Source: Cyanosarcina radialis HA8281-LM2 (GTDB taxonomy: Bacteria > Cyanobacteriota > Cyanobacteriia > Cyanobacteriales > CCAP-1448). Taken from it: a stretch of DNA of 64,000 nucleotides. Made by a program: the position numbers and the translations under genes. The notes under the pieces are model-generated. The model was not told the DNA's origin and did no database searches. It was given only the letters and a program-made list of their open reading frames with translations. This document shows, piece by piece, positions 1,362 through 60,569 of this stretch. Location of the stretch: contig JAHHHA010000032.1 in assembly GCA_019359615.1 (NCBI GenBank), positions 1-64,000 on the forward strand. The letters are read 5' to 3'. Within the stretch, counting starts at the first letter, position 1, and the number at the start of each line of letters is the position of its first letter.

Positions 1362-1521
1362 GGATAGACCGATCGCACCTCATCGTGCATAATAAAATTA
1401 CTATCAACCTTAAATATATCATTGATATAACTCTATTTAACATATAGAGTCGAACAAAAAAAGCGATCGCAATTTCAAGTAAAAAGCCTGAGCCAGCTTA
1501 GTCGAGCGTTTGGAGGGTAGC

Positions 1522-1857
1522 GTGCTAGAAGCCTTTGTGTTTGCCACTGTATTGTGTGGTTTTTTCGGCATCATCTGGAAAAAGAATCTGATGATGAAGA
1601 TCGTCGCCATGGATGTCATGAGTACGGGAGTAATTGGCTATTACGTCGTCATCGCCGCCCGCGATGGATTGTTCGCGCCCATAGTTTCGGATGCGAATAA
1701 AGGGGCGTATGCCGATCCGGTTCCCCAGGCGGTGATTTTGACAGCGATCGTCATTGGTTTGTCGATTCAGGCTCTGATGTTAGTCGGGGCGATGAAATTG
1801 GCCAAGGATAATCCCACCTTAGAAATCAGCGAGATCGAGAAGGGCAATACACCATGA
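1522..1857 (+). CDS. mrpC: Mrp cation/proton antiporter subunit C (NuoK-like)
   Basis: This is a small, three-helix membrane protein of the MrpC/NuoK family and part of the Mrp Na+/H+ antiporter in the cytoplasmic membrane. Its segments (FVFATVLCGFFGIIW, VIGYYVVIAARDG, AVILTAIVIGLSIQALMLV) match the family layout, and the length (111 aa) is usual. I chose GTG at 1522 because GGAGG lies at 1512-1516, 5 nt upstream; a TTG at 1510 is the alternative. It overlaps mrpD by ATGA. It is the first gene of the mrp cluster. Confidence 0.85.
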   Translation: MLEAFVFATVLCGFFGIIWKKNLMMKIVAMDVMSTGVIGYYVVIAARDGLFAPIVSDANKGAYADPVPQAVILTAIVIGLSIQALMLVGAMKLAKDNPTLEISEIEKGNTP

Positions 1858-3344
1858 CCGCGCTAACTTTAACCTGGATTGCCTTCCCGTTTTTAGTCGG
1901 ATTTACGATCTACTTGCTGCCCAAGCTCGATCGCTATCTGGCGCTGTTCGGGGCGCTGTTTTCTGCCGGGTATGCCGCGTGGCTGTTCGTCCATCAGTCG
2001 CCCATAGAACTGAGATTGCTCGATCGCTTTGGGGTCAGCTTGTTACTCGACCCGCTGGCGGGCTTTTTTATCCTCACCAACGCGCTGGTGACGTTAGCAG
2101 TAATTCTCTACTGCTGGCGCAGCGATAAGAATACTTTTTTCTATGCCCAAACGCTGATTCTGCACGGCAGCATCAACGCGGCCCTAGCTTGTACCGATTT
2201 TATCAGCCTGTACGTGGCGCTAGAGGTACTCAGCATCGCTTCCTTTTTGCTGATTGTCTATCCCAGAAGCGATCGATCGATTTGGGTGGGCTTGCGTTAC
2301 CTGTTTGTCAGCAACATCGCCATGCTGTTTTATCTGGTAGGGGCGGTGCTGGTGTATAAAGCTCATCATTCTTTTGATTTTGTCGGGTTAAAGGTAGCAC
2401 CGCCAGAGGCGCTGGCGTTGATATTTTTGGGCTTGCTGGTTAAGGGCGGAATTTTTATTTCTGGACTGTGGTTGCCCTTGACTCACTCGGAATCCGAAGC
2501 CCCAGTTTCCGCCTTGATGTCGGGCATTGTAGTCAAAGCGGCGGTGTTGCCCTTAGCGCGTTGCGCCCTGCTGTTAGAAGAAGTCGATCCGATCGTGCGG
2601 ATTTTGGGGGTAGGAACGGCACTTTTGGGCGTATTCTATGCCGTGTTTGAAAAAGATACCAAGCGAATCCTGGCATGGAGTACGACTTCGCAGTTGGGTT
2701 TTATCCTAGCCGCACCGGAAGTAGCAGGCTTTTACGCCCTAACGCACGGACTGGTTAAGGCTGCACTGTTTCTAATTGCAGGGATTTTGCCCAGCCGCAA
2801 CCTCAACGAATTGCAAACTCGATCGATTCCCACTCCAATCTGGATTGCCTTGGCCGTTGCTAGTTTTTCGATTTCTGGATTTCCCTTGCTATCGGGCTTC
2901 GGGGCCAAGGTGCTGACGATGAAAAATTTGTTGCCTTGGCAGGTTATCGGCATGAACGTTGCCGCCTTCGGAACGGCAGTTACTTATGCCAGATTCATCT
3001 TTCTCCCCCACAGACAGCAGCAGGAAGCAGAGCGATCGCCTTTACAACCGGGTTTTTGGGCGGCCATGGCCTTGTTACTCGGTGGGTTGATAGTCGCGAA
3101 TGTCGTCTACTACGACGCTTACAACCTGCAAAACATTATCAAACCCCTAGCTACGATTGCTCTAAGCTGGCTGGCTTATTGGTTTGTTTTTCGCCGGATT
3201 GCCATCAAACTGCCTCGAATGCTAGAGGAATTCGATCATCTCATCGGGTTCATGGGGTTAAGTTTAGTTCTCCTCTTCTGGATCGCTATAGCCCGATCGA
3301 ACCCTTTATTTTCTGGCTTACCGTTCTATTTTGGAGCGCCATAG
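1854..3344 (+). CDS. mrpD: Mrp antiporter subunit D (NuoN/NuoM-like)
   Basis: The 496-residue polytopic protein belongs to the proton-conducting transporter family shared by Mrp MrpD and complex I NuoL/M/N. It has the buried Glu in SLYVALEVLSIASFL, and the Lys/His-bearing core LVKGGIFISGLWLPLTHSES...VVKAAVLPLARC. About 13-14 hydrophobic helices are apparent. It should form the ion path of the antiporter. It starts inside mrpC (ATGA overlap), so the two are translationally coupled. It is the only large antiporter-type subunit in this cluster. A 168-nt gap separates it from mrpE, wider than any other gap in the operon. Confidence 0.9.
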   Translation: MTALTLTWIAFPFLVGFTIYLLPKLDRYLALFGALFSAGYAAWLFVHQSPIELRLLDRFGVSLLLDPLAGFFILTNALVTLAVILYCWRSDKNTFFYAQTLILHGSINAALACTDFISLYVALEVLSIASFLLIVYPRSDRSIWVGLRYLFVSNIAMLFYLVGAVLVYKAHHSFDFVGLKVAPPEALALIFLGLLVKGGIFISGLWLPLTHSESEAPVSALMSGIVVKAAVLPLARCALLLEEVDPIVRILGVGTALLGVFYAVFEKDTKRILAWSTTSQLGFILAAPEVAGFYALTHGLVKAALFLIAGILPSRNLNELQTRSIPTPIWIALAVASFSISGFPLLSGFGAKVLTMKNLLPWQVIGMNVAAFGTAVTYARFIFLPHRQQQEAERSPLQPGFWAAMALLLGGLIVANVVYYDAYNLQNIIKPLATIALSWLAYWFVFRRIAIKLPRMLEEFDHLIGFMGLSLVLLFWIAIARSNPLFSGLPFYFGAP

Positions 3345-3397
3345 CGCGAGCAGATAACTGAATAGACTGTTGGCAAAAAACCACATTTTAGATTTAG

Positions 3398-3437
3398 AAC
3401 GCAGATGAATAGCGGATAAACGCAGATAAACGCAGAT
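3398..3437 (+). repeat. Three AACGCAGAT direct repeats between mrpD and mrpE
   Basis: The motif AACGCAGAT occurs three times in 40 nt (AACGCAGATGAATAGCGGAT then AAACGCAGAT twice). It lies in the only sizeable gap of the mrp operon. It may be a decayed repeat rather than an operator; no promoter can be assigned with confidence. Confidence 0.5.
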
Positions 3438-3512
3438 GTTTTTGATAATTTATCGACTTATCCAAGAAATCTATCGCTCGAGTTCCATGCTCTTATTCTG
3501 GATCGCGCTTGT

Positions 3513-3896
3513 ATGATCGGACACTTGATTCTCAGGCTCACAATTTGGTTTTTACTCACTGCTAATTTCAGTGCGGCCAATATTGTCATTGGCGTAGCGA
3601 TCGCCTTAATTTTACCCCGCAGTTCCACCTCTCCCGAACGTCTAAAAGACTTGTTGCGAGGGTTGTGGAAGATTATCGTCGCCGTTCCCCAGGCTTATAA
3701 GGAAGCGTTTGAACTGATCTTCCGTCCCCACAACGAAGAGGAAATTGTCATGGAACGAGTGCCCGGTAAGCGATCGCCCGGATTGATTTTCCTCGATATC
3801 TTTTTGATTACTTTTACGCCCAAAACTACGGTTTTGAAATATCACGACCGGGGCTGGTATGAAGTCCATCACGTATGTCGGAGGAAACGATCGTGA
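3513..3896 (+). CDS. mrpE: Mrp antiporter subunit E
   Basis: The 127-residue product has the MrpE pattern: an N-terminal membrane segment (LTIWFLLTANFSAANIVIGVAIALIL), a cytoplasmic amphipathic section (LRGLWKIIVAVPQAYKEAFELIFRP), and a C-terminal stretch ITFTPKTTVLKYHD that matches the family's conserved tail. MrpE is a required accessory subunit of the Mrp complex. It is slightly shorter than the usual 160 residues. Its stop overlaps the proposed GTG of mrpF by four bases (GTGA). Confidence 0.85.
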   Translation: MIGHLILRLTIWFLLTANFSAANIVIGVAIALILPRSSTSPERLKDLLRGLWKIIVAVPQAYKEAFELIFRPHNEEEIVMERVPGKRSPGLIFLDIFLITFTPKTTVLKYHDRGWYEVHHVCRRKRS

Positions 3897-4150
3897 TTCT
3901 CAACATAGCTTTAATCGTGATGATTCTGGCGTTGCTGATTCCCCTCTATCAAGTATGGAAAGAGGAGGAAATTTGGCAAACTATGCTCGGTCTTGCCAGC
4001 GTTTCGACCAAATCGGCCGTGATGATTTTACTAGTTTCCGTCCTGCGGGACGATTGGATGGTTGGGGTGGTGGGCGTAATCGTTCTCACTGTAGGCAATG
4101 CTGGGTTTATGCTGCTGGCTCATATTCTCAAACAGATGGGGGACGCATGA
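3893..4150 (+). CDS. mrpF: Mrp antiporter subunit F
   Basis: A small three-helix membrane protein of the MrpF family, starting with ILNIALIVMILALLIPLYQVW and ending with a third helix GVIVLTVGNAGFMLLAHIL. I prefer GTG at 3893 (85 aa) because GGAGG lies at 3879-3883, 9 nt upstream. It also gives the typical MrpF N-terminus and a four-base GTGA overlap with mrpE. An ATG at 3875 would add six residues. The gene overlaps mrpG by ATGA. Confidence 0.85.
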   Translation: MILNIALIVMILALLIPLYQVWKEEEIWQTMLGLASVSTKSAVMILLVSVLRDDWMVGVVGVIVLTVGNAGFMLLAHILKQMGDA

Positions 4151-4437
4151 TCGACTTGCTAAGTTATCTCTGTATTGGTTTGGGTCTGTTTTTCTGGTTT
4201 TGGGGAACTCCCGTTCTTTTGACCCAGAGATCGGTTCTTTTTAAGCTGCACAATCTATCGGTAGCAGATACCCTCGGCTCGATCGCGATTATTTTCGGGC
4301 TGCTGGTGAAACGACCTAGAGAATGGCCGCTGCTGTTGCTGGCTATCCTTTCCCTGGCTTTGTGGAATACGATGTTGGGCTACGTGCTGGCCTATTGCTC
4401 TAGTAGTGCAAACCCCAGGAGGAATGTTAATGGATAG
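4147..4437 (+). CDS. mrpG: Mrp antiporter subunit G
   Basis: This 96-residue protein with three hydrophobic segments matches MrpG/PhaG. The central motif VLFKLHNLSVADTLGSIAII corresponds to the family's conserved R..HxLSxADTLG loop, followed by a last helix. MrpG is a small structural subunit of the Mrp complex. The ATG at 4147 overlaps the mrpF stop (ATGA), and its last 8 nt overlap the following gene, whose AGGAGG lies within mrpG. Confidence 0.85.
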   Translation: MIDLLSYLCIGLGLFFWFWGTPVLLTQRSVLFKLHNLSVADTLGSIAIIFGLLVKRPREWPLLLLAILSLALWNTMLGYVLAYCSSSANPRRNVNG

Positions 4438-4984
4438 CTACGTTTACGCGATCGCAGCCCTGTTGCCCCTGACCGCGGTGATGGTGGTGTTGCAGACCAA
4501 TCCTTACCGCGCTCTGGTCGTGCGGGGGATTCTAGGAGCCATAGCAGCCTTAGTTTATACGGTTTTGGGGGCGGCAGATGTCGCCCTCACCGAGGCCCTG
4601 GTCGGAACCCTGCTGGCGATTACCTTGTATGCCATTGCCGTGCGATCGTCTTTAGTTCTGCGCTTGGGGGTGCTAAAAGACGATGTTGAAACCGCAGGCG
4701 ATCCTAGCAGCGATCGAATCAGTTCTTTCCAGCAATTGATGCAGGATCTCCGCACTATTTTTCATAAATATCATCTGCGCGTCGAGTTGGTATCTTACCT
4801 CGATCCAAAGAGTTTGCAGCAGGGATTAATCGACAAAGAAATTCATGCCATTTGCGATCGCTCGCAACCCGATTGCATTACTACCCGCCTCCGTCGCGTC
4901 TACGAAATCGTGCAAGCTGAATTGCCATCTGCTGAGATTCTTTTAAAGTCGATCGAGCCAGCTAATTCTAAGGAGGCGCATTGA
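4430..4984 (+). CDS. DUF4040 protein equivalent to the C-terminal part of MrpA
   Basis: The N-terminal ~95 residues hold three membrane segments with the sequence ALVVRGILGAIAALVYTVLG and ADVALTEALVGTLLAITLYAIAV. This matches DUF4040/MbhD, the domain found at the C-terminal end of long MrpA. A further ~90 residues form a soluble tail with no family I recognise (KYHLRVELVSYLDPKSLQ...). The start at 4430 is set by AGGAGG at 4417-4422, 7 nt upstream; GTG at 4406 is less likely. The NuoL-like 500-residue half of a normal MrpA is absent here. The stop overlaps the next ATG (TGATG). Confidence 0.8.
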   Translation: MDSYVYAIAALLPLTAVMVVLQTNPYRALVVRGILGAIAALVYTVLGAADVALTEALVGTLLAITLYAIAVRSSLVLRLGVLKDDVETAGDPSSDRISSFQQLMQDLRTIFHKYHLRVELVSYLDPKSLQQGLIDKEIHAICDRSQPDCITTRLRRVYEIVQAELPSAEILLKSIEPANSKEAH

Positions 4985-5643
4985 TGAAGTGGATCTATGT
5001 AGCTGCGGGAATTGCCTTTTACATCAAAATGCTCCTGCTGGCCAATCCGTCCCCGCGCTTGCCGTTTTCGATCGTCGAGGCAGTTCTAGAAGATAGCGGC
5101 GTACCGAACGTGGTTTCGGGAATTATTCTGCGGAATCGACTTTACGACACCATCTTTGAAGTCATCGTGTTTACGATCGCCATCATGGGAGTAAAGTTTT
5201 TGCTCTCTAACGAACGTCCCCTCAGCCAAGTTTACCAATTCAGCGATCGCTCTTCTATTCTCCTGGCCCGTTTAGGGGCGACGATTTCCGCTTTAGTGGG
5301 AATCGAACTAGCAATTCGCGGACATCTCAGTCCTGGCGGTGGGTTTGCAGCAGGTGTAGCCGGAGGAACTGCGATCGGTTTAGTGGCAATGACTTCATCT
5401 ACTGAGTGGATGCAGAAAGTCTATCACCGCTGGCACGCCGCCGAGTGGGAAAAGGTATCGGTACTAGTCTTCGTTCTGCTGTCGATAATCACGCTAGCTG
5501 GCTGGGAACTACCCCACGGAAAGTTAGGCGAACTCTTCAGCGGGGGAATTCTGCCGATTCTCAATATCCTAGTCGCTATCAAAGTAGCATTGGGTTCGTG
5601 GGCGGCAGTTTTAATTTTTATTCGCTATCGGGGACTGTTATGA
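4984..5643 (+). CDS. mrpB: Mrp antiporter subunit B (MnhB domain)
   Basis: The 219-residue product contains an N-terminal extension with NPSPRLPFSIVEAVLEDSGV and VNVVSGIILRNRLYDTIFE-like sequence (as in MbhE/MrpA tail). The MnhB domain proper follows: IELAIRGHLSPGGGFAAGVA, where the GHLSPGGGFQAG-type motif is the family signature. AGGAGG at 4971-4976 fits the ATG at 4984 better than the TTG at 4981. This is the last gene of the mrp operon, which probably exports Na+ in exchange for H+. Confidence 0.85.
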   Translation: MKWIYVAAGIAFYIKMLLLANPSPRLPFSIVEAVLEDSGVPNVVSGIILRNRLYDTIFEVIVFTIAIMGVKFLLSNERPLSQVYQFSDRSSILLARLGATISALVGIELAIRGHLSPGGGFAAGVAGGTAIGLVAMTSSTEWMQKVYHRWHAAEWEKVSVLVFVLLSIITLAGWELPHGKLGELFSGGILPILNILVAIKVALGSWAAVLIFIRYRGLL

Positions 5644-5701: not shown

Positions 5702-6259
5702 CTACACCTCTCTGATTATCCGACAAGGATTGCCTGCGGCCACGACATTAGCTGGAATATCTTTAGTAACAACGCTTCCCGCCCCGATCGTCGTATTGTT
5801 GCCAATAGTGACTCCCGGACAAATAATTACCCCACCGCCGATCCAAACATCATCGCCAATAGTAACTGGTGCGGCCATCTCCAAACCCGATCGCCTAGTT
5901 TCTGCATCTAAGGGATGATATGCCGTGTAGATTTGAACTTTGGGAGCTATCAAAACGTTGCTACCGATATAAACTTTGTTGCAATCTAAGATAACGCAAT
6001 CGTAGTTGATATAAAGATTTTCTTTGACGTAAATGTGACAGCCGTAGTCGCAGCGAAATGGCGGTTTGACTTCAAAAATTTCACCGATCGAGCCAAACAG
6101 AGCTTTAACGATCTCCCGTCGCTTTTGGCGATCGCCAGGGCGCGATAAGTTGAAATCGTGTAAGAGATTTTGAGCTTTTAGGTGCAGGCGTTCGAGTTCG
6201 GGATCGATCGCGATGTATGGCTCGTTGGCTAACATCTTTTCCCTCTCTGTCTTGCTCAT
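5702..6259 (-). CDS. Maltose/galactoside O-acetyltransferase-type protein
   Basis: A 185-residue LacA/Maa-type acetyltransferase: the N-terminal Mac helix region (MSKTEREKMLANEPYIAIDPEL), then the left-handed beta-helix with hexapeptide repeats (VYIGSNVLIAPKVQIYTAYH, VTIGDDVWIGGGVIICPGVTIG). His in YTAYHPLD is the expected catalytic base, and the C-terminal GNPCRIIR motif closes the helix. It should transfer acetyl from acetyl-CoA to a sugar hydroxyl; the true substrate is unknown. It ends 58 nt from the mrpB stop and converges on it. The antitoxin/PIN genes lie just upstream on the same strand. Confidence 0.9.
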   Translation of the reverse strand: MSKTEREKMLANEPYIAIDPELERLHLKAQNLLHDFNLSRPGDRQKRREIVKALFGSIGEIFEVKPPFRCDYGCHIYVKENLYINYDCVILDCNKVYIGSNVLIAPKVQIYTAYHPLDAETRRSGLEMAAPVTIGDDVWIGGGVIICPGVTIGNNTTIGAGSVVTKDIPANVVAAGNPCRIIREV

Positions 6260-6264
6260 TGCTA

Positions 6265-6492
6265 CTATATAACGTTAACTGAATAGGCACAAACTGCTGG
6301 CTCTACTGTTGCAATTGTTAGATTATTTTGTAACTTGCCTAACTGGTATTTGACAATTACTTCCCAAACTGAAACTACACTCAGATAGACCTCGTTGTCA
6401 GGATCGCGAATTGCATCTCGAACGTTTGTTGATAACTGTGGGTTGCCAGTGATGAACCACAAAAAGATATGCGTATCTAGCAAAATCCTCAT
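6265..6492 (-). pseudogene. PIN-domain (VapC-type) toxin with its centre deleted
   Basis: The 75-residue frame starts like a Sll0205-type PIN toxin (MRILLDTHIFLWFITGNPQL ... SVVSVWEVIVKYQLGKL) and ends like the last ~20 residues of the same family (LTIATVEPAVCAYSVNVI). Normal members are about 125-130 residues. The missing part is the middle, including the DPFDR-type acidic residue and helices. Visible catalytic acids are Asp6 and the Glu of SVWE, but the third acid is gone. The join is in frame, so a short product could still be made and perhaps bind the antitoxin. It overlaps the antitoxin gene by ATGA. Confidence 0.8.
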
Positions 6493-6725
6493 TTACCCTC
6501 GAATGCTCTGAGAATATCTTCCGATAAAGAAGCATTAAAATCATCTGGAACTGTAAACTCTCCCGCACGCAAAGCAAACGGTCGCAATTCCTTAGTCGCG
6601 TTAATAAGTCTAACTTCAGCGATCGGCTGGTCGGATCTAACAACGATAAGAGTCTCACCGGCCTCTACTTGACGCAGGTACTTCAGGGGATCGCGTTGAA
6701 TTTCCTCGATCGTTATTGTTAGCAT
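6489..6725 (-). CDS. Type II antitoxin, Phd/YefM-like
   Basis: The 78-residue protein begins MLTITIEEIQRDPLKYLRQV and continues EAGETLIVVRSDQPIAEVRL, the usual N-terminal DNA-binding layout of Phd/YefM antitoxins in cyanobacteria. The C-terminal tail (FTVPDDFNASLSEDILRAFE) is the toxin-binding arm. It is full length and upstream of, and overlapping, the PIN gene. Such antitoxins normally repress their own promoter. Here the partner toxin is internally deleted, so the antitoxin may persist as a repressor or as protection against toxins encoded elsewhere. Confidence 0.85.
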   Translation of the reverse strand: MLTITIEEIQRDPLKYLRQVEAGETLIVVRSDQPIAEVRLINATKELRPFALRAGEFTVPDDFNASLSEDILRAFEGK

Positions 6726-6938
6726 TAGTCTTCCTCAATGTCACGGACAAATACAACAATGGAGTTTTCCGATCCTAACCCACAAACAATAATCTCCGAT
6801 CGTTAAAGCCAGCATTCGCGATCCCGTGTATTGCGATTTGCGGGCGACGAGATTGTTATGCAGATTCCGCCATTAGTCTGACGAAGTGGATCGTCGCTTC
6901 CTCTAAGCTTGAAAAGATCGATCGAGGATAAAAGAACA

Positions 6939-7652
6939 ATGACGCAATTTTGGCTTTGGTTTGGGTGCATCAGCATGACAGCAGGAGCGATATTTTTTGG
7001 GTTTGGAGCCGATCGCGCCAAAAGCCAGCGGTGGCAAGTCGTCTACAGTTTGAACTTTTTCATTTGCGCGATCGCCGCAGCATTATACTTGGCAATGAGC
7101 TTCAAACAAGGATTTACCTACATCGGAGATCGGCCAGCCTATTTAACTCGGTATCTAACTTGGACGTTTTCCACTCCACTGACGATCGTATTGCTGAGTT
7201 ATCTCGGACGAACAAGCATTCCGATCGTCGCCAGTATGGTTGGTGCAGACGTATACACGATCGTGACAGGCTTTGTGGCGACCATTTCCACGAAGCCAGT
7301 GAGTAATATTTGGTACGTTGTTAGCTGCGGTGCCTATTTAGGATTGGCATATTTATTGCTGAAACAGTATCGCCAGCAAGCAGAACGGCACTACCCTAGA
7401 GCAAAAAAAGTTTTTTATCGGTTACTAGCGGTTCATCTAGTTATTTGGACTGCTTATCCGATCGTCTGGATTTTGGCTAGCACTGGTTTTAACGCGATCG
7501 ATAGCACCACAGAAACTGCTTGCTATACCATTCTCGATATTGCGGCTAAAGTTGGCTTTGGATTCTTAGCTTTGAACTCTCTGAATCAGTTAGAGCAGGC
7601 TGAATCGGCAGCCCGACAAGCACAAGAGCGAAGCTTCAGTCGTTTGAACTAA
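6939..7652 (+). CDS. Microbial rhodopsin, cyanobacterial halorhodopsin (anion pump) type
   Basis: This 237-residue, seven-helix protein is a microbial rhodopsin. The retinal Schiff-base lysine is Lys204 in LDIAAKVGFG, with Asp200 as the conserved counterpart of bacteriorhodopsin Asp212. Helix C reads RYLTWTFSTPLTIVL: the Asp85/Thr89/Asp96 positions of bacteriorhodopsin are Thr74, Ser78 and Leu85. Thr-Ser at the first two positions is the signature of inward anion pumps, and WTAYPIVW is the helix F retinal pocket. The start ATG 6939 has GAGGA at 6924-6928, and MTQ-W-W fits my recollection of the Mastigocladopsis protein. It should pump chloride (or similar) inward in light. No carotenoid cleavage gene is adjacent. 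Confidence 0.9.
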   Translation: MTQFWLWFGCISMTAGAIFFGFGADRAKSQRWQVVYSLNFFICAIAAALYLAMSFKQGFTYIGDRPAYLTRYLTWTFSTPLTIVLLSYLGRTSIPIVASMVGADVYTIVTGFVATISTKPVSNIWYVVSCGAYLGLAYLLLKQYRQQAERHYPRAKKVFYRLLAVHLVIWTAYPIVWILASTGFNAIDSTTETACYTILDIAAKVGFGFLALNSLNQLEQAESAARQAQERSFSRLN

Positions 7653-21427: not shown

Positions 21428-22425
21428 AAAACATCGAACGCTTCTCCTACCGTTAAGCGCATTCCATTGGCAAAATCCCAGCCAGATTGAGGGCGTTTGC
21501 CAGCAAGTTGCACTTCTTGCAACAACAACAGTCCTTCTCCGGTTTGCACGATCGGGCCGATATTCTTGACGATCGCGATCGCTTCTCCAGGTTGGGCTGT
21601 GGCTGAAGAGAAGGTATTAAAATTCTCTTTGAGGAGGCTTAAGGTTGGCGGTAAATCTGCCCAGTAATCCTCGCCAAGGGGAACTGTAGCCAGAATTTTC
21701 AAGTTTTGCCCGCGAAATTTGGCTGCACAATCGGGGAAAAAGCCTCTAATTTGATTGTGGATCTCGATCGCTCGTCTCGACCAATCAATCGCGTAGTCTG
21801 ATTTTTTAATTAGAGGGGCATAAGTTGCTTGGGAGTTGTCTTGAGGTTGGGGTTGAATTCCTTGGTCTTTTAGTTTGAGGAGAGTTTCAACTAACAAGTC
21901 GGCCCCCAGACTAGCTAGAGTTTGCCCTAATTGCTCTGCATTATCTAACAATCCAATGGGGGTATAAGCTGTTAAGAGAACAGCCCCAGTATCCATCCCA
22001 GCATCCATTAACATAGTGGCGATCCCGGTTTCCTTTTCCCCATGGTAGAGACACCACTGAATCGGAGCGGCTCCTCTATATTTGGGCAAAATCGAGCCGT
22101 GGACGTTTATACAGCCTATTTTGGGAATATCGAGGATTTCTTGAGACAGAATTTGACCGTAAGCTACCACCACGAATACATCTGCTTCTGCCTGTCGCAG
22201 TCGATCGATCGTCTGGGGATCTTTTTTGATCCTTTCGGGCTGCCACACGGGTAGCTGATGCTCTAAAGCTAAGGTTTTCACGGGTGAAGGGAGTAGCTCG
22301 TTCCCTCGCCCTCGACGGCGATCTGGTTGAGTAACTACACCTTTGACAATAAATTCTGGCTGAGCTAGCAATCGTTCCAAAGTAGGAACCGCAAATTGAG
22401 GCGTACCGAAGAAGATGACTTTCAT
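21424..22425 (-). CDS. fmt: Methionyl-tRNA formyltransferase
   Basis: This enzyme formylates initiator Met-tRNA using 10-formyl-THF. The 333-residue protein has the N-terminal Rossmann part ([20 protein letters not shown]) and the SLLPKYRG motif as [16 protein letters not shown]. The catalytic Asn (CINVHGS), His and Asp (LMDAGMDTG) follow. The C-terminal tRNA-binding domain is complete. The start codon directly abuts an octamer tandem repeat (22424-22534), so its whole visible leader is repeat sequence and no Shine-Dalgarno is present. Confidence 0.97.
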
Positions 22426-22534
22426 GGGAGATGGGGAGATGGGGAGATGGGGAGATGGGGAGATGGGGAGATGGGGAGATGGGGAGATGGGGAGATGGGG
22501 AGATAGGGGGATGGGGAGATGGGGGGATGGGGAG
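22424..22534. repeat. Tandem repeat of the octamer ATGGGGAG, about 13 units
   Basis: From the fmt start outward the octamer ATGGGGAG repeats nearly perfectly, with the far units showing GGGGG variants. The same octamer occurs three times after ureE (12102-12124). The repeat forms the complete proximal leader of fmt and gives artefactual Pro/Ser-rich frames on the minus strand. Confidence 0.95.
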
Positions 22535-22732
22535 AATTTTTAACTCCACACTCCACACTTAACACTTAAAACTTCCTAACCTTCTGAACTTCTGAACTTC
22601 TGAACTCCTAAATTCGTGGTTTCGTAAATTTTAGTGAACGAGTTAAATTGTGTGGTCCTAACTTGGTATAACCGATCGTGTATTTGCTTCTCATATCAGA
22701 AAGCTGTTATTTCATTATTTAATCTCCAATTC

Positions 22733-59870: not shown

Positions 59871-60569
59871 ATGAAAGCTTTAATTCGATCGCTTGTCGGT
59901 ATTTTAGTCTTCTTCATTGATGTCATCTACCGCGATCGCCCCTATGCTCGTTTTTACGTCTTAGAAACGATCGCTCGCGTCCCCTACTTCGCCTACCTAT
60001 CCGTTCTCCATCTCAACGAAACTCTGGGCTTTTGGCGCAAAGCCGACTGGCTGAAAGTTCATTTTGCCGAAACCTGGAACGAACTGCATCACCTGCTGAT
60101 TATGGAATCGCTGGGCGGAGATCGAGCTTGGGGCGATCGCTTTTTAGCCCAACACATTGCCTTGGCTTACTATTGGATCGTCGTCCCTCTGTATATGCTA
60201 TTTCCCCGATATGCCTATTACATGATGGAGTTAATCGAGGAACACGCTTATCACACCTACGACACCTTTCTGCAAACGCATGAAGAGGTACTAAAAGCGC
60301 AACCCGCCCCCCAAATTGCCATCAACTACTACCGAGATGGCGATCTCTATATGTTCGAGGAAATGCAGACCTCGACTCGCTCTGAGTTTCGTCGCCCTCC
60401 AGTGGATAACCTGTACGACGTGTTTGTCAACATTCGCGATGATGAATCCGAACACGTCAAGACCATGATTGCCTGTCAGCATCCTGAAGCCCGGATTACT
60501 TTCAAAAGCCCGCATACACTGCCTCAGCCGATCGAGGCGGAAGTAAAGGCGGCTCTCTCTAAAAACTAA
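59871..60569 (+). CDS. Plastoquinol terminal oxidase (alternative oxidase family)
   Basis: The 232-residue di-iron protein oxidises plastoquinol with O2. Ligand motifs in order: LETIARVPYFAY (Glu), FAETWNELHHLLIMESLGG (Glu, His, Glu), IEEHAYHTYD (Glu), and RDDESEHVKTM (Glu, His). These are the six di-iron ligands of AOX/PTOX. The spacing and the ARFYVLET start match chloroplast IMMUTANS-type PTOX. It acts as a safety valve for electrons in the thylakoid or cytoplasmic membrane. CAGGAGAA precedes the ATG. Confidence 0.96.
   Translation: MKALIRSLVGILVFFIDVIYRDRPYARFYVLETIARVPYFAYLSVLHLNETLGFWRKADWLKVHFAETWNELHHLLIMESLGGDRAWGDRFLAQHIALAYYWIVVPLYMLFPRYAYYMMELIEEHAYHTYDTFLQTHEEVLKAQPAPQIAINYYRDGDLYMFEEMQTSTRSEFRRPPVDNLYDVFVNIRDDESEHVKTMIACQHPEARITFKSPHTLPQPIEAEVKAALSKN

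Follow-up and report, generated by a model that had tools for sequence, protein, structure and literature searches.

The rhodopsin gene and its surroundings

The window, by which we mean the whole 64,000-nucleotide stretch analysed from Cyanosarcina radialis HA8281-LM2, carries a rhodopsin gene on the forward strand at 6939-7652, which translates into 237 amino acids from ATG to TAA with no internal stop. An alternative TTG start upstream, at 6909, would give a product of 247 amino acids; the ATG at 6939 lines up with the positions where SyHR and MrHR begin. The protein matches the Bac_rhodopsin family of Pfam (PF01036, E=1.2e-46, residues 2-216), and with this domain, a seven-helix model and the retinal lysine Lys204 in helix G it has the features of a type 1 rhodopsin. 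NCBIfam assigned no family to it. The gene and the codons discussed below are as follows (BR and PR refer to the numbering of reference rhodopsins).

6939..7652, + strand: predicted cyanobacterial halorhodopsin gene, 237 aa, ATG to stop TAA
7158..7160, + strand: Thr74 codon, BR Asp85 site; anion site in SyHR
7170..7172, + strand: Ser78 codon, BR Thr89 site; anion site in SyHR
7182..7184, + strand: Thr82 codon, BR 93 = PR 105, the colour-switch site
7191..7193, + strand: Leu85 codon, BR Asp96 site
7248..7250, + strand: Asp104 codon, BR Asp115 site, 30 residues past the BR Asp85 site without gaps
7434..7436, + strand: His166 codon, equivalent to SyHR His167; in all rows with Thr or Ser at 74 and no row with Asp
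7482..7484, + strand: Thr182 codon, equivalent to SyHR Thr183 and MrHR Glu182
7545..7547, + strand: Ala203 codon, preceding the retinal lysine; Ser in SyHR and MrHR
7548..7550, + strand: Lys204 codon, retinal Schiff base

A Mrp-type Na+/H+ (cation/H+) antiporter cluster occupies about 1510-5643, upstream of the rhodopsin gene and on its strand; between them, on the reverse strand, is a maltose O-acetyltransferase-like gene (5702-6259). A small reverse-strand ORF (6492-6734, also given as 6495-6725) has no Pfam match, looks antitoxin-like by eye, and is 62% identical to an ORF that lies near the rhodopsin gene of Hydrococcus sp. Prado102, on the other side of that gene. Scans for promoters and terminators each returned a single site, where shuffled sequences averaged 1.6 and 0.9. 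When the first 18 kb of the window were compared with the flanks of 16 loci (at most 1.5 kb or up to 4 kb on each side, depending on the genome), no operon or conserved partner was common to the TSL clade described below, and some neighbours were common to close relatives within one genus group.

Other contigs of the genome carry two carotenoid oxygenase-family genes, both nearly full-length, which could, judging from their family, supply retinal. The same genome also encodes a second rhodopsin (locus L002, 288-1004 on the reverse strand of contig C4), which is 26% identical to the query, has Anabaena sensory rhodopsin as its best match (1xio, E=2.5e-107), and carries the motif D-T-A and a proline at the BR Asp212 site. 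Elsewhere in the window, a reverse-strand frame at 22076-22558 opens with near-identical S-P-H-L-P-I repeats and is likelier a low-complexity repeat than a gene, and the forward-strand frame at 59871-60569 encodes a protein that by eye resembles an alternative/plastoquinol terminal oxidase.

Assignment to the cyanobacterial halorhodopsins

Relatives were collected from order, class, family and phylum samples that overlap one another. At E<=1e-30 the query matched 24 of 388 genomes in the order sample and 33 of 388 in the class sample, counts that include relatives of DTD proton pumps; at E<=1e-60 it had matches in 13 of 42 genomes from the family of one Leptolyngbya relative and in 4 of 386 drawn from the phylum. 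Scanning the contigs of named genomes gave 19 loci, and in the class sample loci were taken from 30 of 36 places, the other six being 32-36% identical (one is L025, and five were left out). The resulting 71 loci encode 64 distinct proteins. Among them, 45 full-length loci together with the SyHR and MrHR chains make up the 47 rows of cyanobacterial halorhodopsins (CyHRs) used here, or about 46 distinct proteins, as the branch between SyHR and L005 has zero length. Three loci (L019, L022 and L024) are absent from the 63-row alignment because of their short length; helix C reads TSD in L019 and in L022, which has a stop inside, and is absent in L024. The outgroup loci L066, L068 and L071 stand outside both trees, and L002, L069, L023 and L025 also outside the second. 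Eight of 72,556 plasmid records matched the query, at 27-38% identity, and no close relative was present among these records.

The best relatives in the PDB are SyHR (E=5.2e-89) and MrHR (E=7.3e-88). An AlphaFold2 model built from a 29-sequence alignment has a mean pLDDT of 92.1 and superimposes on the crystal structures of MrHR at 0.7 Å (Z 35.5) and of SyHR at 0.7-0.9 Å (Z 35.3). In the tree, the 47 CyHR rows, including the query, split from 13 outgroup rows with 99/99 support. The query has the CyHR residues Thr74, Ser78 and the helix-F histidine His166, the last being characteristic of the CyHR clade (PMC9617919). Arg71, Glu192, Asp200 and Lys204 are invariant in all 47 CyHR rows, that of the query included, and His166 occurs in every row with Thr or Ser at position 74 and in 0 of 16 with Asp there; it is from this invariance and this His166 pattern that we infer an inward anion pump. 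By its sequence the query is a cyanobacterial halorhodopsin, and very probably functions as a light-driven anion pump. The first-pass annotation, made from the letters of the window, had likewise read an MrHR-like anion pump, and this part of its interpretation agrees with the sequence, the tree and the model.

The T-S-L motif in helix C

Ungapped alignment with SyHR and MrHR confirms that Thr74, Ser78 and Leu85 occupy the BR 85, 89 and 96 sites, as the earlier annotation had placed them. We checked ten rows (SyHR, MrHR, four haloarchaeal DTD proteins, one cyanobacterial DTD protein and three other CyHRs) and found the +4 and +11 site spacing identical in all, with positions 74-104 free of gaps; this identical spacing rules out an alignment shift that hides an acid at the third site.

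The same annotation had taken TSD as the norm for cyanobacterial anion pumps, which proved too narrow. Of the 45 full-length CyHR loci, 19 carry Asp at the third motif site, 13 Leu, 8 Ile, 3 Val and 2 Thr, so that 26 of 45, with the query among them, lack Asp, and we rejected a third-site Asp as a defining feature of CyHRs. Published lists already contain TSV, TSL and TSI variations (PMC9617919) and TSD, TSV and TSL (PMC5877348); thus the TSL motif itself is in print and not new. By 2022 only two anion pumps of the cyanobacterial clade had been characterised, both with TSD (PMC9617919). Among the matches listed in the open-access literature we found no characterised TSL protein, and the accessible part of the 39-protein table of PMC7979833 has TSD, TSV, TTV, TSA and TTD and no TSL. 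In the accessible literature, the clade to which the query belongs is known by mention of its motif alone.

Evolutionary history of the TSL clade

All 13 TSL rows form one clade with support of 99/96, or 96/93 when eight signature columns are removed, and the smallest well-supported clade that contains every Leu85 row has no other letter at site 85. On these sequences Leu85 is a clade trait, more than a stray change. Eleven members belong to one Leptolyngbya-like family (f48; Leptolyngbya and Phormidesmis are the named members here), one comes from a MAG of Hydrococcus sp. Prado102, and one is the query, whose nearest relative is the Hydrococcus protein at 83% identity. Because the query genome belongs to another order than this family and its gene is nested among the family's genes, the rhodopsin gene was likely transferred between cyanobacterial lineages; a published analysis concludes that ion-pump rhodopsins of cyanobacteria have moved in this way repeatedly (PMC11528372, accessible part).

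In nine pairs computed within the clade, dN/dS is 0.05-0.16 with synonymous sites partly saturated, a comparison of coding sequences that indicates purifying selection on the clade. A pseudogene reading finds no support in an open frame and a low dN/dS. The stop flagged in one relative (L027) is its own terminator, at codon 236.

Asp85 appears to have been lost about four times on the tree (in TSL/TST; in the TSI group with one TSV row; in SSI; and in a TTV/TSV pair), a count that is approximate since many inner branches of the other CyHRs are weak. The two S-S-I rows (L016, 1501-2202 on the forward strand, and L017) have Ser at the first site and sit on a long stem branch. TSL and TST group as one clade at 92/79 when all columns are used. 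Once the eight signature columns are taken out together with the longest outgroup branches, the position of TST with TSL is not resolved (53/0), and a constraint holding the two together is not rejected in the reduced tree (p-AU 0.63), in which the other 32 CyHR rows fall on one side at 96/92. The deep split within CyHRs is therefore supported, and the placement of TST is not.

Residues around the retinal that accompany Leu85

Leu85 does not stand by itself, since Thr82, Met100, Asp104, Gly135, Leu136 and Ala203 accompany it in 13 of 13 TSL rows. The TSD rows have Leu82, Leu100 and Asn104 in 21 of 21 and Ser203 in 20 of 21; SyHR and MrHR read Leu, Leu, Asn, Thr/Ile and Ser at 82, 100, 104, 136 and 203. 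All of these residues define one clade and so reflect a single evolutionary event or a small number of them rather than 13 independent ones. The set Thr82/Met100/Asp104/Leu136/Ala203 shared by the TSL rows may be new.

Site 82 corresponds to PR 105 by a published numbering table (PMC5877348), the position of the Leu/Gln blue-green switch of proteorhodopsins (PMC10807816, accessible part). It is Thr in all 13 TSL rows, Gln in two TST rows, and Leu in the 32 other CyHR and all 16 outgroup rows. Within the accessible portion of the open-access literature, nothing addressed how Thr at this site affects colour. The two T-S-T CyHRs with Gln here (L040, 1501-2193 on the forward strand, and L045, 1489-2193 on the reverse strand) are candidate blue-shifted anion pumps.

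Site 104 is Asp in 15 of 15 TSL and TST rows and in 15 of 16 outgroup rows, and Asn in the 32 other CyHR rows. Because Asp is found both in TSL/TST and in nearly all of the outgroup, Asp104 looks to be retained from a proton-pump-like ancestor and Asn104 to be derived in the other CyHRs, the direction of change being read from this distribution. The corresponding BR Asp115 hydrogen-bonds Thr90 beside the retinal (PMC3411786, accessible part), and Thr79 of the query lies at that Thr90 site. SyHR has Asn104 here, which together with T137 and H167 borders a water-filled cavity on the side where the anion exits (PMC9617919). Residue 211, equivalent to SyHR S212 of the D85-N39-S212 network (PMC9617919), is Ala in 10 of 13 TSL and 2 of 2 TST rows. 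T82, D104 and A203 around the retinal are the likeliest source of any difference in behaviour, and we predict that TSL proteins have a changed colour or changed photocycle kinetics, in either direction.

Predicted transport and alternative explanations

The best explanation, to which we give a probability of about 0.78, is a CyHR that pumps anions inward, with Leu85 inherited within its clade, the substrate probably set by residues elsewhere, and the residues at the retinal altering colour or kinetics. Sequence, family, clade, signature residues and predicted fold are direct results of the analysis; transport, its direction, the substrate and the colour are predictions. Such a retinal protein would import anions with the energy of light: Cl-, probably Br- and possibly sulfate. 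With the protein in its dark state, Thr74 and Ser78 would bind the anion close to the protonated Schiff base that Lys204 forms, Arg71 and Asp200 being close by, much as T74 and S78 hold Cl- near the Schiff base of SyHR (PMC9617919). Isomerisation would then carry it past the Schiff base to leave on the cytoplasmic side near His166. Leu85 would come from the ancestor of the TSL clade, in place of an Asp whose loss MrHR tolerates and which has disappeared about four times on the tree, and is probably not a determinant of substrate; the larger contrast with SyHR and MrHR is the linked set of T82, M100, D104, L136, A203 and often A211, around the retinal and in the cytoplasmic half, which would change colour and photocycle kinetics more than the choice of ion.

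The possibility of sulfate depends on several residues. In SyHR, R71 is needed for sulfate binding and the polarity of His167 for efficient transport (PMC11995866, accessible part), and the loss of MrHR Glu182 has been given as a sulfate determinant, boosted by swapping in five SyHR-like residues of helix F (PMC9525653, accessible part). The query has R71, E192 (SyHR Glu193) and T182, and its residues 155-161 read A-K-K-V-F-Y-R, compared with A-K-K-V-F-R-K in SyHR and S-K-Q-A-F-R-T in MrHR, so that these residues are, from the alignment, mostly SyHR-like. Thr182 is a modest and non-specific argument, since it is present in 35 of 47 rows. The prediction is further weakened by Phe59, where SyHR has Arg59, placed near the anion gate (PMC11995866, accessible part), and by Gly63-Asp64, which brings in an acid where SyHR has Ala63-Gly64.

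The first-pass annotation had suggested that Leu85 itself may alter the photocycle or the handling of substrate (chloride, sulfate), and a rival explanation is that it does so strongly. Asp85 does lose its proton in the course of the photocycle, and a role as a barrier to chloride backflow has been suggested for it (PMC9617919), through which its loss may matter in vivo; Leu85 is universal in the TSL clade, and the Ser partner of the D85-N39-S212 network is lost along with Asp in 10 of 13 rows. However, the family does not conserve this site, 26 of 45 loci having no Asp there, and replacing the Asp of MrHR reportedly hardly changed the photocycle (PMC9617919), for which reason Leu85 alone is weak ground for a new substrate. 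The sulfate determinants described in the accessible parts of PMC11995866 and PMC9525653 also lie at other residues, and we consider a strong effect of Leu85 itself unlikely.

Other functions of the protein are less probable still. That the query pumps something other than anions, such as protons, is brought to mind by Asp104 beside the retinal, at the BR Asp115 site, and by the single change T74D, which turns MrHR into a proton pump (PMC9617919). Yet the acceptor site holds Thr74 and not Asp, and the donor site Leu85; moreover, BR Asp115 hydrogen-bonds Thr90 and a D115A mutant keeps the pocket, by the accessible part of PMC3411786, and we regard proton pumping as hardly credible. A photosensor, or another non-pumping photoreceptor that has kept the halorhodopsin fold, would fit with the lack of a neighbour common to the TSL clade, and the Anabaena-sensory-rhodopsin-like protein makes sensory use plausible in this genome; but all of the anion-site residues are kept, selection on the clade is purifying and the scanned neighbours include no transducer, which leaves this reading very improbable, if slightly less so than proton pumping.

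More tentatively, and with somewhat less than even confidence, the TSL proteins, perhaps with TST, may form a second cyanobacterial anion-pump lineage beside the characterised ones, with the cytoplasmic half remodelled as a unit. The acid at helix-C position 85 would be gone and the BR-like Asp104 kept, and the colour-switch site would have changed from Leu to Thr in TSL or to Gln in TST. If true, these would be spectrally retuned and possibly sulfate-capable anion pumps whose ion release does without the Asp85/Asn104 arrangement seen in SyHR and MrHR. A TSL member is in any case a natural test of the role of the helix-C Asp and of the residues that enable sulfate movement, as well as of whether anion pumps use the proteorhodopsin colour switch; should a Gln82 (TST) relative prove blue-shifted, the switch would be common to proton and anion pumps.

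Comparison with known systems

For the putative inward anion pump described here, the closest known system is SyHR of Synechocystis sp. PCC 7509 (7zou, 7zoy), which is 59.2% identical to the query and lies 0.7-0.9 Å from its model. The two have in common T74, S78, R71, E192, Thr182 (SyHR Thr183), His166 (SyHR His167) and the retinal lysine. They differ in that SyHR has D85, L82, L100 and N104 where the query has L85, T82, M100 and D104, and T137, S204 (before the lysine), S212, R59 and A63-G64 where it has L136, A203, A211, F59 and G63-D64. MrHR of Mastigocladopsis repens (6xl3, 6k6i) is 57.5% identical and has the same anion-site residues, with D85, L82, N104, S203, E182, N63 and P118 in contrast to L85, T82, D104, A203, T182, G63 and T118 of the query.

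Two further groups resemble the query in lacking an acid at the third site. The TSV/TTV proteins of Cyanothece PCC 7425 and Myxosarcina GI1, listed as BacHR in the accessible part of PMC7979833, absorb at 566 and 557 nm after expression; the TSV/TTV rows in our alignment, which may differ from the proteins measured, are not members of the TSL clade and still have Leu82 and Asn104. The haloarchaeal halorhodopsins HsHR and NpHR, by the description in PMC9617919, have Ala as the third residue and are without the helix-F His, and by published descriptions (PMC9617919, PMC5877348) their TSA motif shares with that of the query a Thr-Ser pair followed by a neutral third residue.
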